Positions 36,515 through 42,281 of a DNA stretch of 64,000 nt are shown piece by piece (within the stretch, counting starts at the first letter, position 1; every line of letters begins with the position of its first letter). The notes beneath the pieces were generated by a model. The model had not been told where the DNA came from, searched no databases, and saw only the letters and a program-made list of their open reading frames with translations. The position numbers and the translations under genes are program-made. This DNA comes from Pseudomonadota bacterium (GTDB lineage Bacteria > Pseudomonadota > Gammaproteobacteria > Burkholderiales > Gallionellaceae): contig JAPLQK010000069.1 of the NCBI GenBank assembly GCA_026399735.1, positions 1-64,000 on the forward strand, given 5' to 3'.

Positions 36515-37549
36515 TTACTTGCTTACACGTACTTTTGACTCTTCACGTACAACCGAACGGATTTCTACGCGACGGTTTTGTGCGCGTCCGGCACGAGTCT
36601 TGTTATCGCCAACGGGCATGGTATCAGCCTCACCCTTAGTGGTGATACGGTCAGCTGCAACACCCTTCTTGACCAGGAATGCCTTGACCGATGCAGCACG
36701 CTTTTCGGACAACTTTTGATTCAGTTTCTTGGAGCCAGTGCTGTCGGTATGACCCGTGACAGCCAGGTTTGACTCTTTGTACTTGGCAGCAAAATCAACC
36801 ACCTCATTCAACTTCTTGTCAGCAGCAGGCTTCAGCTTTGCAGAGTTGGTGTCAAAATTCGCGCCTTCAATCGTCACCGGCTTGTCAGTGAAAATTGTCT
36901 TGAAGGATTCCTGAGGCGCCGCAACCGGAGCAGGTGCTGAAACCGCCTTAGCCACGACCGGTGCTGCAACAGCAGCAGCTGGTGCAACATAAGGAGAATC
37001 GAAGTAATAATTTACGCCGATAGTGAGGTTGTTGTTAGTCAGCTTGCTGCCTGCATTTTTAGCACTGGCAGAAGTATATTCACCCGCCACGCTCCAATGA
37101 GGCGCAAACTTGTATTCCACGCCCAGGCCAAGATGTGCGCCACTTGCGCCAAACGTGCTGGCGGCGCCATTCGCGTTGATGCGGCCATAGCCTAATTTTG
37201 CGTAAGGCAGCCAGTTGCCTGAAGGCAGACCCAATTTTGCGTCCAGACCGTAGTCCTTGCTGCCATAACTAACCGCTCCCGGGTTATGAGTAGCAGAACG
37301 ATTTGAATCAACAAAGCCATCCACACCCAGCAGAAAACTGCTTACATCCCAGTTGTAGCCTGCTTCAACGCCATACGTGTTTGCGCTTTTGGTGTCCAAA
37401 GTTGTCAGAGAAGAACGGTCAGAGCCCGCTTTTGCGCCGACCCAACCACCGGAAAACTCACCGGCCTGTGCAACTGAAATACTTAACAGCGCAGCTGCCA
37501 GTGCAATACTCATGGTATTTTTTTTCATCATCTTTTCCTTTTGGTTCAT
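36515..37549 (-). CDS. OmpA-family outer membrane protein (copy 1)
   Basis: Signal peptide, N-terminal barrel, C-terminal OmpA domain (VTGHTDSTGSKKLNQKLSEKRAASVKAFLVKKGV...RAQNRRVEI). Confidence 0.92.
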   Translation of the reverse strand: MNQKEKMMKKNTMSIALAAALLSISVAQAGEFSGGWVGAKAGSDRSSLTTLDTKSANTYGVEAGYNWDVSSFLLGVDGFVDSNRSATHNPGAVSYGSKDYGLDAKLGLPSGNWLPYAKLGYGRINANGAASTFGASGAHLGLGVEYKFAPHWSVAGEYTSASAKNAGSKLTNNNLTIGVNYYFDSPYVAPAAAVAAPVVAKAVSAPAPVAAPQESFKTIFTDKPVTIEGANFDTNSAKLKPAADKKLNEVVDFAAKYKESNLAVTGHTDSTGSKKLNQKLSEKRAASVKAFLVKKGVAADRITTKGEADTMPVGDNKTRAGRAQNRRVEIRSVVREESKVRVSK

Positions 37550-37658
37550 TTAAAATTCTTGACCCGACTCAGGCGCCGGTATTTTTTCGGCATTCTATCC
37601 CAATACAGCTAACTGACAAGTCACGTTGCAAAAATACAACAAACTTTTTCAGTACGGA

Positions 37659-38798
37659 TTATTCTGTAACGCGGACTTTCTTTTCTTCCCTGATACCTGA
37701 GCGAATTTCTACACGACGGTTTTGTGCACGGCCTTCTTCTGTATTGTTATCCGCCACCGGCTGTTCAAAGCCAAAACCCTGGGTACTGATGCGCTCGGCC
37801 GCAACGCCCTTCTTGACCAACGCACCCTTGAAGGCTGCCGCACGACGCATCGACAGTTTCTGGTTGTAAGCCTTTTTGGATTTACCGGCCCGAAAGTCAG
37901 TGTGTCCGGCTATTTGCAGCTGTGCGTCCGGGTACAGTTTGGCAAATTCAGCCACCTCATCAAGTCTGGTATCGGCAGCAGGCAACAATTTCGCTGACTT
38001 CGTATCAAAATTGACCCCGGTAAAAGTCACAGGCTTATCTTCCAGCAACGTCTTCCAGACTTCCTTCGGCTGTTCCTTGACGACTACTTTCGACTCTTCC
38101 TTAACCACAGGCACTTCAATCGGCACTTTGGGCAATTCCCGTTTGGCGACCGGTGCAATTTGCGGCGCATAAGGAATATTGTTGGTATCGAAGTAGTAAT
38201 TAAGCCCCAGCATGAAGTTATCATTGTTCAGCCGGGTCACTCCGCTCGTGGCATTCGCACGGGCATATTCACCCGAAACGCTCAATTCCGGCGTAAATTT
38301 ATATTCCGCACCCAGCCCCAGGTGCGCGCCGCCCCCGCTGATCTGACGGGCGTCGCCATTCCCAGATGTGCGCACATAACCCAACTTGGCATAAGGCAAC
38401 CAGTCACCCATAGGTACGCCGATTTTTCCGTCAAAACCTAAAGCGCGGCTACCATAATTAACCGGCCCGGGGTTATGGGCAGCCTTGCCGTTCAAGTCCG
38501 CGAAACCATCCACACCCAGCAGAAAAGACTCAACATTCCAGTTGTAGCCGCCCGCAAGGCCAAAGGCAGTCGCGCCTTGTTTGTCCCAACCTGACAGGTC
38601 AGACTGATTGTAGCCCAGCCTGGCACCGAGCCAGACGCCGTCAAATTCACCAGCTTGCGCTGCATTTATCCCCGACAGCGCAACGGCCAGCGCCAAGATA
38701 CCTTTGTTCATTGCTATCTCCCTTAAGGTCGAAAAATCAAATTTAATCAAAATATTCAATGACTTAAATAGCCTCCGTCCGCTGCCGTCTTGCCTCAA
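37659..38798 (-). CDS. OmpA-family outer membrane protein (copy 2; start probably an internal Met, MNKGILALAVALSGINAAQA)
   Basis: Same architecture as copy 1: IAGHTDFRAGKSKKAYNQKLSMRRAAAFKGALVKKGV...RAQNRRVEIRSGIRE. Confidence 0.9.
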   Translation of the reverse strand: MRQDGSGRRLFKSLNILIKFDFSTLREIAMNKGILALAVALSGINAAQAGEFDGVWLGARLGYNQSDLSGWDKQGATAFGLAGGYNWNVESFLLGVDGFADLNGKAAHNPGPVNYGSRALGFDGKIGVPMGDWLPYAKLGYVRTSGNGDARQISGGGAHLGLGAEYKFTPELSVSGEYARANATSGVTRLNNDNFMLGLNYYFDTNNIPYAPQIAPVAKRELPKVPIEVPVVKEESKVVVKEQPKEVWKTLLEDKPVTFTGVNFDTKSAKLLPAADTRLDEVAEFAKLYPDAQLQIAGHTDFRAGKSKKAYNQKLSMRRAAAFKGALVKKGVAAERISTQGFGFEQPVADNNTEEGRAQNRRVEIRSGIREEKKVRVTE

Positions 38799-39507: not shown

Positions 39508-41737
39508 GTTTTTTCTTCCCTTTTGCTTTCTTTGGCTTAGCAGCGCCTGCTGACTCACCCACAGCCACTTCCGAGTGCAGCACGAAGTCGATCTTGGTGC
39601 TCTCCATGTCCACCTTGACCACACGCACTTCTACCCGGTCGCCCAGACGATAGCTCTGCCCGGTACGCTCACCCAGCAAATGATGTTTGGCCGCATCGAA
39701 ATGGAAGTAATCCTTGCCCAGTTCGGAGATATGCACCAGTCCTTCGACATACAGATCATCAAGCGAAACAAACATACCAAAACTCGTGACAGAAGACACC
39801 GTACCGGTAAACACGCTGCCCAGATGATCGCGCATATAGAAACACTTCAGCCAGGCTTCCACGTCGCGCGTCGCATCGTCGGCACGGCGCTCAGTCATAG
39901 AGCAGTGGATACCCAGTTCAGCCCATTTCTGCGCAGGCTTGTACTGTTTTCCCTGCAACACAGCCTTGATGGCGCGATGTACCAGCAGATCAGGATAGCG
40001 TCTGATAGGGGAGGTGAAATGCGTATAAGCTTCATAGCCCAGACCGAAGTGGCCGATATTTTCCGGTTCGTACTTGGCCTGACGCAAGGAGCGCAGCATC
40101 ACGGTTTGCAGCAAGGCGGCATCAGGACGCCCCTTGATACGTTTGAGCAACTTGGAATAATCCGCCGCCTGCGGCTCGTCATCTCCCGTTAAACCCAAAC
40201 CAAACTCTTTCATGAATTCGCGCAAGGCTTCCAGTTTCTCCGGTGTCGGCCCCTGATGGATACGATACAACACAGGATGCTGATGCTCGTGCAGGAATCC
40301 TGCCGCACACACGTTCGCTGCCAGCATACATTCTTCAATCAGTTTATGTGCGTCGTTGCGCACTACCGGCACGATGCGATCGATCTTGCCCTGTTCGGTA
40401 AAAATCATCTGCGTCTCGACCGTTTCAAAGTCGATTGCACCGCGCTTTTCGCGCGCTTTTAACAACTTCTGGAACAATTCATGCAGATGTTGCAGATGCG
40501 GCACAATCGACACATTTTGTCTGGCCAACTCGCCATCCGGCTGCGCCAGCATTTCGGCAACCTGGTTATAAGTCAGGCGCGCGTTGGAATACATCACCGA
40601 CGGATAAAAACGGTATTCACCGATCTCACCCTTGCCACTGATATGCATGTCGCACACCATACACAAGCGATCTACCTGCGGGTTCAAGGAACACAAGCCG
40701 TTGGACAACTCTTCGGGCAACATCGGAATCACGCGACGCGGGAAATACACCGAATTGCCGCGCAGAATGGCCTCGCGATCTAACGCATCGTTGGTCTGCA
40801 CATAATGACTGACGTCAGCAATCGCGACCACCAGACGGTAACCGCCTTTTTCAGGTACGCAATACACGGCATCATCAAAATCCCGTGCGGTTTCGCCATC
40901 AATGGTCACCAGCGGCAGATTGCGAATATCTTCACGCCCGGCCCAGTCTTCAGGGGATACCACAGGTGAGATCGCTTTAGCCTGTTTTTCCGCATCCTTG
41001 GGAAAATCATGCGGCAAATCATGCTTACGCAACGCGATCTCAATTTCCATACCCGGATCGGCATAGTTACCCAACACCTGCACGATGCGACCGATCGGTT
41101 GCGCATGCTTGTCCGGATGTTTGATAATTTCAAGGATAACCACCTGACCTGCTTTAGCGCCACCCGACCCGCCTGCTGCGACCAGAATATCCTGAGTGAT
41201 GCGGCGATTCTCGGCGACTACGAACTGAATGCCGTGTTCCTCGTACAGACGACCGACCACTTTATTGTTGGCCCGCTCCAGCACTTCGACAATTTTAGCC
41301 TCAGGACGACCGCGACGGTCGGTACCTGCCTGCCTCACCATCACCACGTCGCCGTTCAATACCTGATGCATTTCCTTCTCGGAGAGAAACATGTCGGCGC
41401 TGCCGTCTTCAGGTATCAGGAAACCGAAACCATCCGGATGGCCTTGCACCTTACCCTTCACCAGATCGAGTTTATCCATCACGCAGATCGCACGTTTGCG
41501 GTTACGCATGATCTGACCGTCGCGTTCCATTGCACGCAGTCGGCGCGAAAACAGATCCTCCTCATCGCGCTCGATGAGCAGCATATCCAGCAGATCGTCA
41601 TCCGCCATGGGTGCACCATGTTCGGTCAAAATCTGCAGAATAAATTCGCGGCTTGGCAACGGATGTTCGTATTGTTCGCGCTCTCTTTCCAGAAACGGAT
41701 CCTGCAAACGTAAATTATTTTTCTTTTTCATTGACAA
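39500..41737 (-). CDS. rnr: Ribonuclease R
   Basis: RNB domain (TIDGETARDFDDAVYC), S1 domain, basic C-terminus. Confidence 0.95.
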   Translation of the reverse strand: MSMKKKNNLRLQDPFLEREREQYEHPLPSREFILQILTEHGAPMADDDLLDMLLIERDEEDLFSRRLRAMERDGQIMRNRKRAICVMDKLDLVKGKVQGHPDGFGFLIPEDGSADMFLSEKEMHQVLNGDVVMVRQAGTDRRGRPEAKIVEVLERANNKVVGRLYEEHGIQFVVAENRRITQDILVAAGGSGGAKAGQVVILEIIKHPDKHAQPIGRIVQVLGNYADPGMEIEIALRKHDLPHDFPKDAEKQAKAISPVVSPEDWAGREDIRNLPLVTIDGETARDFDDAVYCVPEKGGYRLVVAIADVSHYVQTNDALDREAILRGNSVYFPRRVIPMLPEELSNGLCSLNPQVDRLCMVCDMHISGKGEIGEYRFYPSVMYSNARLTYNQVAEMLAQPDGELARQNVSIVPHLQHLHELFQKLLKAREKRGAIDFETVETQMIFTEQGKIDRIVPVVRNDAHKLIEECMLAANVCAAGFLHEHQHPVLYRIHQGPTPEKLEALREFMKEFGLGLTGDDEPQAADYSKLLKRIKGRPDAALLQTVMLRSLRQAKYEPENIGHFGLGYEAYTHFTSPIRRYPDLLVHRAIKAVLQGKQYKPAQKWAELGIHCSMTERRADDATRDVEAWLKCFYMRDHLGSVFTGTVSSVTSFGMFVSLDDLYVEGLVHISELGKDYFHFDAAKHHLLGERTGQSYRLGDRVEVRVVKVDMESTKIDFVLHSEVAVGESAGAAKPKKAKGKKKHG

Positions 41738-41785
41738 ATTTTCCTTTAACTATAAAATGCGCGCCTTCAGCAAGAAACATTGCTT

Positions 41786-41870
41786 GCCCAGATGGCGGAA
41801 TTGGTAGACGCGCACGGTTCAGGTCCGTGTGCCGTAAGGTGTGGAGGTTCGAGTCCTCTTCTGGGCACCA
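41786..41870 (+). tRNA. tRNA-Leu(CAG), CCA encoded
   Basis: GCCCAGATGGCGGAATTGGTAGACGCGCACGGTTCAGGTCCGTGTGCCGTAAGGTGTGGAGGTTCGAGTCCTCTTCTGGGCACCA; 7-bp acceptor stem, anticodon loop TTCAGGT, long variable arm. Confidence 0.97.
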
Positions 41871-42225
41871 GAAACAAGTTAAAGCCAGCGCAAGCTGGCT
41901 TTTTCTTTTGAGCCCAGAAAGTAAAGCACCTGCGTGCTTTACGACAGGACTCGAAGGGCATCCGGTACTACGGATGCCGGGGTCGCGCCTGCGTGACCGA
42001 GACTCTTCTGGGCACCAGAAACAACTAAATAGCTCACGCAAGTGAGCTATTTTTTCGTGCCCAGAAAGCGAAACAACTGCTTGTTTCGCGACAGGACTCG
42101 AAGGGCATCTGGCACCGCCGGCGTCGCAGTAGCGCAAGCTACTCGCTTCTGGGCACCAGAAACTAGAAATAGTCAGCGCAAGCTGGCTATTTTTTTTCGT
42201 GCAGAATAAACGAAACAACGACACA
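41858..42225 (+). repeat. Array of three tandem tRNA-3'-end-initiated units (starts 41858, 42005, 42146; spacing 147 and 141 bp), third unit truncated
   Basis: CTTCTGGGCACCAGAAAC present three times; GCAA-loop hairpins at 41881-41902, 42028-42051, 42168-42191; CTGC-loop hairpins at 41921-41942 and 42068-42089; CGACAGGACTCGAAGGGCATC at 41942-41962 and 42089-42109. Confidence 0.93.
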
Positions 42226-42251: not shown

Positions 42252-42281
42252 AAAAACGTGGCGCACTGGCGCCACGTTTTT
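42252..42281. terminator. Perfect 13-bp inverted repeat AAAAACGTGGCGC-ACTG-GCGCCACGTTTTT, terminator downstream of purA (minus) and of the tRNA/repeat region (plus)
   Basis: Perfect stem with flanking A/T tracts, bidirectional. Confidence 0.88.

Follow-up and report, generated by a model that had tools for sequence, protein, structure and literature searches.

Tandem self-antisense elements trailing tRNA genes in Burkholderiales: a structured family and a possible cis switch on read-through pre-tRNA

The closest described system to the array studied here is rtT (RttR) of the E. coli tyrTV operon, in which a tRNA gene is followed by tandem units that each close with a copy of its 3' end. Inspection of that locus (L100, reverse strand) showed that the rtT units also contain internal hairpins and that every one of them holds an antisense arm, GGGGAAGGAT against ATCCTTCCCC, directed at the tRNA-Tyr 3' end. 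Arms of the tRNA end can thus close a long stem in rtT as well. Trailers of stable-RNA genes provide a further point of reference. The 3'ETS-leuZ of E. coli, a tRNA 3' external transcribed spacer, reportedly acts as a sponge, and we know of no parent-antisense arms or tandem arrays in 3'ETS or RrA/B/F RNAs. The latter, located between two rrn terminators of E. coli, are made by read-through of the first terminator (PMC8144298).

The window analyzed here, a stretch of 64,000 nucleotides from the genus Gallionella, carries two complete units and one truncated unit 3' of a tRNA-Leu(CAG) gene (Table 1). The complete units are spaced at 147 and 141 nt. A preliminary description of this DNA had reported three copies of the tRNA 3' end, three GCAA-loop hairpins, two CTGC-loop hairpins, and an invariant block, and had named rtT as the nearest analogue. 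All of these elements were recovered, the repeat CTTCTGGGCACCAGAAAC at 41858, 42005, and 42146, the hairpins at the positions given in Table 1, and the block CGACAGGACTCGAAGGGCATC in both units; the analogy holds and extends to the antisense arm of rtT. The GCAA hairpins are ordinary hairpins of the intrinsic-terminator type. Overlooked at that stage were the nature of AGGACTCGAA within the invariant block, which is antisense to the T-loop and the 3' strand of the T-stem of the tRNA; GCCCAGAA, which lies 5' of the CTGC hairpin and is antisense to the 3' strand of the acceptor; hairpins B and C of unit 1; and the truncated third unit.

Table 1 Features of the tRNA-Leu(CAG) locus and its array in the window
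Feature	Position	Strand	Evidence
Sigma-70-like promoter of the tRNA gene, TTGACA-16-TAAAAT	41731..41758	+	sequence
tRNA-Leu(CAG) gene, CCA encoded	41786..41870	+	
Terminator hairpin 1, GCAA loop, T-rich tail	41881..41902	+	
Unit 1 arm P1a GCCCAGAA, antisense to tRNA positions 65-72 (acceptor 3' strand)	41912..41919	+	
Unit 1 hairpin A, GTAAAGCAC-CTGC-GTGCTTTAC	41921..41942	+	sequence and covariation
Unit 1 arm P2a AGGACTCGAA, antisense to tRNA positions 54-63 (T-loop, T-stem 3' strand)	41946..41955	+	
Unit 1 hairpin B, GGCATCCG-n6-CGGATGCC	41957..41978	+	sequence and covariation
Unit 1 hairpin C, GGTCGCG..CGTGACC, conserved G.U pair	41981..41998	+	covariation
Sense copy of the tRNA 3' end GAGACTCTTCTGGGCACCA, arms P2b and P1b	41999..42017	+	
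Terminator-type hairpin 2 (GCAA loop), then T run	42028..42051	+	
Unit 2 arm P1a GTGCCCAGAA	42057..42066	+	
Unit 2 hairpin A, GCGAAACAA-CTGC-TTGTTTCGC	42068..42089	+	
Unit 2 arm P2a AGGACTCGAA	42093..42102	+	
Unit 2 hairpin B/C region, diverged	42104..42145	+	R1 match, 53.8 bits
Third copy of the tRNA 3' end, with GAAAC flank	42146..42163	+	
Terminator-type hairpin 3 (GCAA loop), then T8	42168..42191	+	
Third unit, truncated: remnant of P1a and hairpin A 5' strand	42199..42219	+	

A unit is a non-coding segment of ~140-150 bp in which a copy of the tRNA 3' end with its terminator is followed by arm P1a, hairpin A (CUGC loop), arm P2a, hairpins B and C, and then the next copy. In this architecture P1a is antisense to the acceptor 3' strand and P2a to tRNA positions 54-65. 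Among the units of the family, most stand behind a terminator and most have a sense copy of the tRNA 3' end after hairpins B and C. The intergenic RNA of both complete units folds far better than dinucleotide shuffles (z of -4.2 for unit 1 and -4.5 for unit 2). The tRNA gene is flanked by rnr and purA homologues, both on the minus strand, and its neighbors, assigned from translations, are homologues of rnr, purA, hisZ, hflC, hflK, and hflX, with no integrase gene among them; BLAST of the organism's own genome returned no second copy of the array. Two other features of the window were recorded. Between the array and purA, positions 42252-42281 form a strong hairpin, AAAAACGTGGCGC-n4-GCGCCACGTTTTT, able to terminate on both strands, and positions 36515-38798 hold two adjoining genes for OmpA-like outer-membrane proteins that, from translations only, have the appearance of a tandem duplication.

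BLAST against 60 relatives placed the unit, often decayed, 3' of tRNA-Leu(CAG) in many Gallionella genomes. Units are decayed or lost in many Gallionella genomes, which indicates that the element is dispensable. In two genomes the same core follows tRNA-Leu(CAA), with the arms refitted to that tRNA (CCGGGG, GGGGGAATCGAA). Covariance models then recovered the architecture across Burkholderiales, 3' of tRNA-Leu, Asp, Ser, Glu, Thr, and SeC genes, which does not support an array specific to tRNA-Leu or to this lineage. Model R1, built on the core, found units in 38 of the 159 genomes of the family, and the order-wide matches included Leu(CAG), Asp, Ser, and SeC loci. Model R2, which includes P2, was positive in 25 of 400 genomes of the order. 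In a 292-genome sample of the class R2 matched only the window's own genome and none of the other 291, mostly from other orders; the filters of this search were strict, so weak relatives may be missed. When 85,488 species genomes were scanned for the hairpin C pattern, 89 stretches emerged, and the recorded taxonomy of nearly all of them is Burkholderiales (Burkholderia, Paraburkholderia, Cupriavidus, Trinickia, Bordetella, Alcaligenes, Roseateles, Ideonella, Pandoraea, and Gallionella). The remaining handful come from metagenome bins whose labels are coarse or possibly wrong; one bears the name Saccharibacteria.

In the curated set, 144 of 149 units lie 3' of a tRNA gene and on its strand, at ten isoacceptors: Leu(CAG) with 109 units, an excess due in part to the search pattern, Asp with 13, Ser(CGA) with 6, Ser(GGA) with 5, Glu with 4, Ser(GCT) and Leu(CAA) with 2 each, and Ser(TGA), Thr, and SeC with 1 each. 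A T run separates the tRNA from the element in 112 of the 123 tRNA-proximal units. Among plasmid sequences, BLAST matched the tRNA-Leu loci of Cupriavidus chromids, from which the cleanest units come; phage sequences matched only through their tRNA-Leu genes and not the element, and the hairpin C pattern had no match in viral contigs. The element cores cluster mainly by tRNA identity, across genera, which points to mostly vertical inheritance and weakens the idea of a rampant mobile element. The preliminary description had asked whether the array might belong to a dispersed repeat family. The family is indeed dispersed, but the curated units occur almost only at tRNA 3' ends and their arms are tailored to each tRNA.

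Several variants of the element were encountered. An orphan Asp-type unit (L103 1501-1589, G321:C2) has no tRNA within ~1.5 kb on its contig. At five loci, from several Gallionellaceae and possibly one related MAG, the loop of hairpin B carries an extra insert of ~50-60 nt (GTGGTTGTTGCCGCTTTAGCGGCTTTACAACCACGGCGTAC...) with hairpins of its own, which reads as a second, nested element. At one tRNA-Leu(CAG) locus (L104 after position 1587, G320) a GC-rich hairpin splits the sense arm P2b between CGAGTCC and CTCTTCTGGGC. Behind a tmRNA (ssrA) gene (L069 1029-1800, G013:C121) lie tandem repeats with a CCTGCG hairpin of similar kind and with stretches antisense to the 3' end of the tmRNA. The order of these parts differs from that of the tRNA family, and the repeats look like a tmRNA version of the same idea; L086 1-170, at a contig start, resembles them.

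The preliminary description of a structured tandem array with covarying hairpins was borne out by the covariance models and the alignments. In the alignment of 47 units fitted by covariance model, 92.1% of the cells are paired and 25 of the 30 pairs show double changes, figures that are upper readings because alignments fitted to a structure lean towards that structure. Controls slid along the same alignment reached at most 49.5% paired and lay below the units on all measures. None of the shuffles attained the pairing, double-change, or covariation measures, and 2 of 500 reached the pair-type count. An alignment of 110 matches agrees with this result. The changes are compensatory and keep the pairs: both sides are changed in 301 cells, and double changes far exceed single ones. 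Loops, linkers, and module order are conserved and the stems vary. One G.U pair persists in hairpin C (34 of 38 and 92 of 97 rows), also between lineages with different flanking pairs.

The fit of the arms to the adjacent tRNA was assessed with one representative per distinct tRNA tail (21 tails). The arms match their cognate tails at 347 of 420 positions, compared with a mean of 284 and a maximum of 310 after permutation, and none of 5000 label permutations was as good. Hairpin A is located at the boundary between acceptor and T-stem, where it splits the two arms; in 85 Leu(CAG) units the partner of the base 5' of it is tRNA position 65, and in the majority of Ser units and of Asp units that have P1 it is position 66. 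Of 106 distinct cases, the antisense runs as far as T54 in 70 and stops at position 59 in 22 others, the latter chiefly the GACGAGAA variant seen in Cupriavidus, Bordetella, and others. Most units have a recognizable P2; P1 is lacking at several Asp and Glu loci, chiefly in Asp and intercistronic copies. As a separate observation, P2a reads GACGAGAA or GGCGAGAA, not GACTCGAA, at eight loci, and these variants occur at both Leu and Asp loci of one genome (G438), a pattern in the sequences that suggests concerted change across different tRNAs.

The identity of the partner to which the arms are fitted is best seen in genome G426, where the cores of the Ser(TGA) and Ser(GGA) units are 91% identical and the arms of each fit its own tRNA. 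Both units are without a full sense copy, which indicates that the partner kept in register is the tRNA and not the copy. We set aside the idea that the fit to the tRNA is kept more tightly in the arms than in the sense copy. Where arm and copy disagree, the arm fits the tRNA in 105 cases to 9, but the copy is then usually the decayed partner, and the arms are not better conserved overall (mismatches to the tRNA at ~12% of arm positions and ~7% of sense-copy positions).

We tentatively read the family as a tRNA-trailing, self-antisense element that could act as a cis switch on read-through pre-tRNA, a model in which leaky read-through past the tRNA terminator would transcribe the element. The antisense arms would then zip onto the 3' half of the tRNA, extending the terminator hairpin and competing with the cloverleaf, and the downstream sense copy could reclaim them. 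Read-through pre-tRNA would in this way be discarded, delayed, or redirected in its 3' processing. At many loci the terminator hairpin can indeed continue downwards into the pairing of arm and tRNA, so that the arms can zip from the terminator stem. In the equilibrium fold of the read-through RNA, a calculation that ignores kinetics, co-transcriptional tRNA folding, and tRNA modification, the tRNA 3' half pairs with downstream sequence in 15 of 17 loci (mean p ~0.7-1.0). Against this model stand the dispensability seen in Gallionella, the loci without P1, and arms that are no better conserved than the sense copy. The copies of the tRNA 3' end are direct repeats and hence allow the copy number to change; arrays may grow and shrink by recombination between them. 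Should the arms work as RNA, bacteria would possess a layer of self-antisense control specific to each tRNA. The bolder proposal, in which tailored antisense refolds the tRNA, couples termination to maturation, and uses copy number as a dosage dial, would make this a new class of tRNA-gene-encoded RNA switch, and we regard it as rather doubtful.

Since covariation in hairpins can arise by template switching too, G.U and A.C pairs were compared. Mutation produces the two with equal likelihood, but they are not equivalent in RNA. In the terminators of the same loci G.U exceeds A.C by 42 to 4, whereas the counts are 9 to 3 in hairpin A and 5 to 6 in hairpin B (together 14 to 9), and counts based on the alignments agree. 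The terminators thus behave as RNA. Hairpins A and B are almost purely Watson-Crick with little strand bias; hairpin B, and perhaps hairpin A, appears to be maintained as a near-perfect inverted repeat without strand preference. Constant loops and changing paired stems, from which selection on RNA or hairpin-DNA structure had originally been proposed, are therefore insufficient alone to show selection on RNA, and maintenance at the DNA level becomes a serious rival. The conserved G.U pair of hairpin C points the opposite way and argues for RNA. It is this mixed outcome that keeps the RNA reading tentative and leaves DNA-level maintenance as a somewhat unlikely alternative.

According to that alternative, the unit is a DNA palindrome, an inverted repeat kept by template switching, by a hairpin-recognizing recombinase or transposase that uses single-stranded DNA, or by both. 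The tRNA 3' end would serve as the template of the arms in quasipalindrome correction, and the unit could be a tiny non-autonomous element directed at the 3' ends of tRNA genes. Besides the absence of a significant G.U bias in hairpins A and B, the predominance of double changes is as expected from such correction, which would moreover yield cognate arms without selection. Direct repeats of the tRNA 3' end bound the unit, a congener (L034) lacks it near-precisely at the site where L079 has it, and units appear to have moved between tRNAs with their arms refitted, from Leu(CAG) to Leu(CAA) in Gallionella and between Ser(TGA) and Ser(GGA). Self-correction, however, would remove the G.U pair of hairpin C, and it does not account for loops, linkers, and module order that stay fixed while the stems vary; this conservation indicates that something recognizes the unit. 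The lack of a neighboring integrase gene, the tRNA-only phage matches and unmatched viral contigs, the mostly vertical grouping of the cores by tRNA, and the placement of nearly all curated units on the tRNA strand and 3' of the tRNA likewise weigh against it. If template switching does maintain the arms, the family offers a clear example from nature of palindromes that correct themselves against an essential gene as template.

Improbable, in our estimation, is a trans-acting RNA, in which read-through or processed transcripts would work as a sponge or sRNA and the tRNA-like arms would serve processing or stability only. The element sits where known trailer RNAs do, with a terminator of a stable-RNA gene on either side, as described for RrA/B/F of E. 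coli (PMC8144298), and the CUGC loop and hairpin C are conserved and possibly exposed. Nevertheless, the constant unpaired stretches are short, and a target in trans leaves the tracking of the adjacent tRNA by the arms unexplained. Neutral debris, that is, repeated tandem duplication of the tRNA 3' end and trailer with slowly decaying chance palindromes, would suit the frequent decay and loss in Gallionella and the direct repeats that bound the duplications, but it is equally improbable, being largely refuted already by the covariation (compensatory double changes in 25 of 30 pairs and 92% of cells paired, with slid controls at 50% or less) and at odds with the persistence of the same modules at unrelated tRNAs across Burkholderiales.

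No description of the family was found in the open-licence literature, and the accessible parts of the B. cenocepacia TSS papers make no mention of such an RNA. The 'Burkholderiales-1' motif, known to us from a table entry and absent from Rfam, may overlap it (Weinberg 2010; PMC2864571). The array had no Rfam match at the gathering threshold, and permissive thresholds gave no usable match either; sX4 and similar sub-threshold matches were rejected, being located mainly on tRNA-Ser itself. The Rfam RtT model matched neither the window nor nine related loci at gathering, nor did it appear in sub-threshold scans, and R2 in turn did not match rtT (best 9.4 bits, E 0.13).

Set against known systems, the tRNA-trailing element would share with 3'ETS-leuZ and RrA/B/F the origin of a short RNA in the trailer of a stable-RNA gene, its own transcript being a predicted one. 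With the integrative elements that use tRNA 3' ends as att sites for tyrosine recombinases it has in common the flanking direct repeats that restore the tRNA and the near-precise empty site; unlike these, the unit is ~140-150 bp long and non-coding, is without a nearby recombinase, contains internal antisense arms, and has a core inherited mainly with its tRNA. REP/BIME palindromes and integron attC sites also consist of non-coding units rich in hairpins, with stems that vary and, in some cases, a tandem arrangement, but the present units occur almost only at tRNA 3' ends and, in contrast to attC, have no constant core-site boxes and have arms that change with the adjacent tRNA. The similarity to rtT is the closest and is nonetheless partial. 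rtT is found at tRNA-Tyr only, in enterobacteria, whereas the present family trails Leu, Asp, Ser, Glu, Thr, and SeC genes in Burkholderiales; its arm is contiguous, with no splitting hairpin, and stops short of the T-loop; its units have no intervening terminator and do not share the core of the present family, and a tpr ORF is annotated. The family, which includes laboratory-friendly Cupriavidus, offers a large comparative set for the long-open question of what such repeats do, and rtT, an isolated curiosity of E. coli, becomes one case of a wider principle in which mirror copies of a tRNA 3' end are kept behind the gene.
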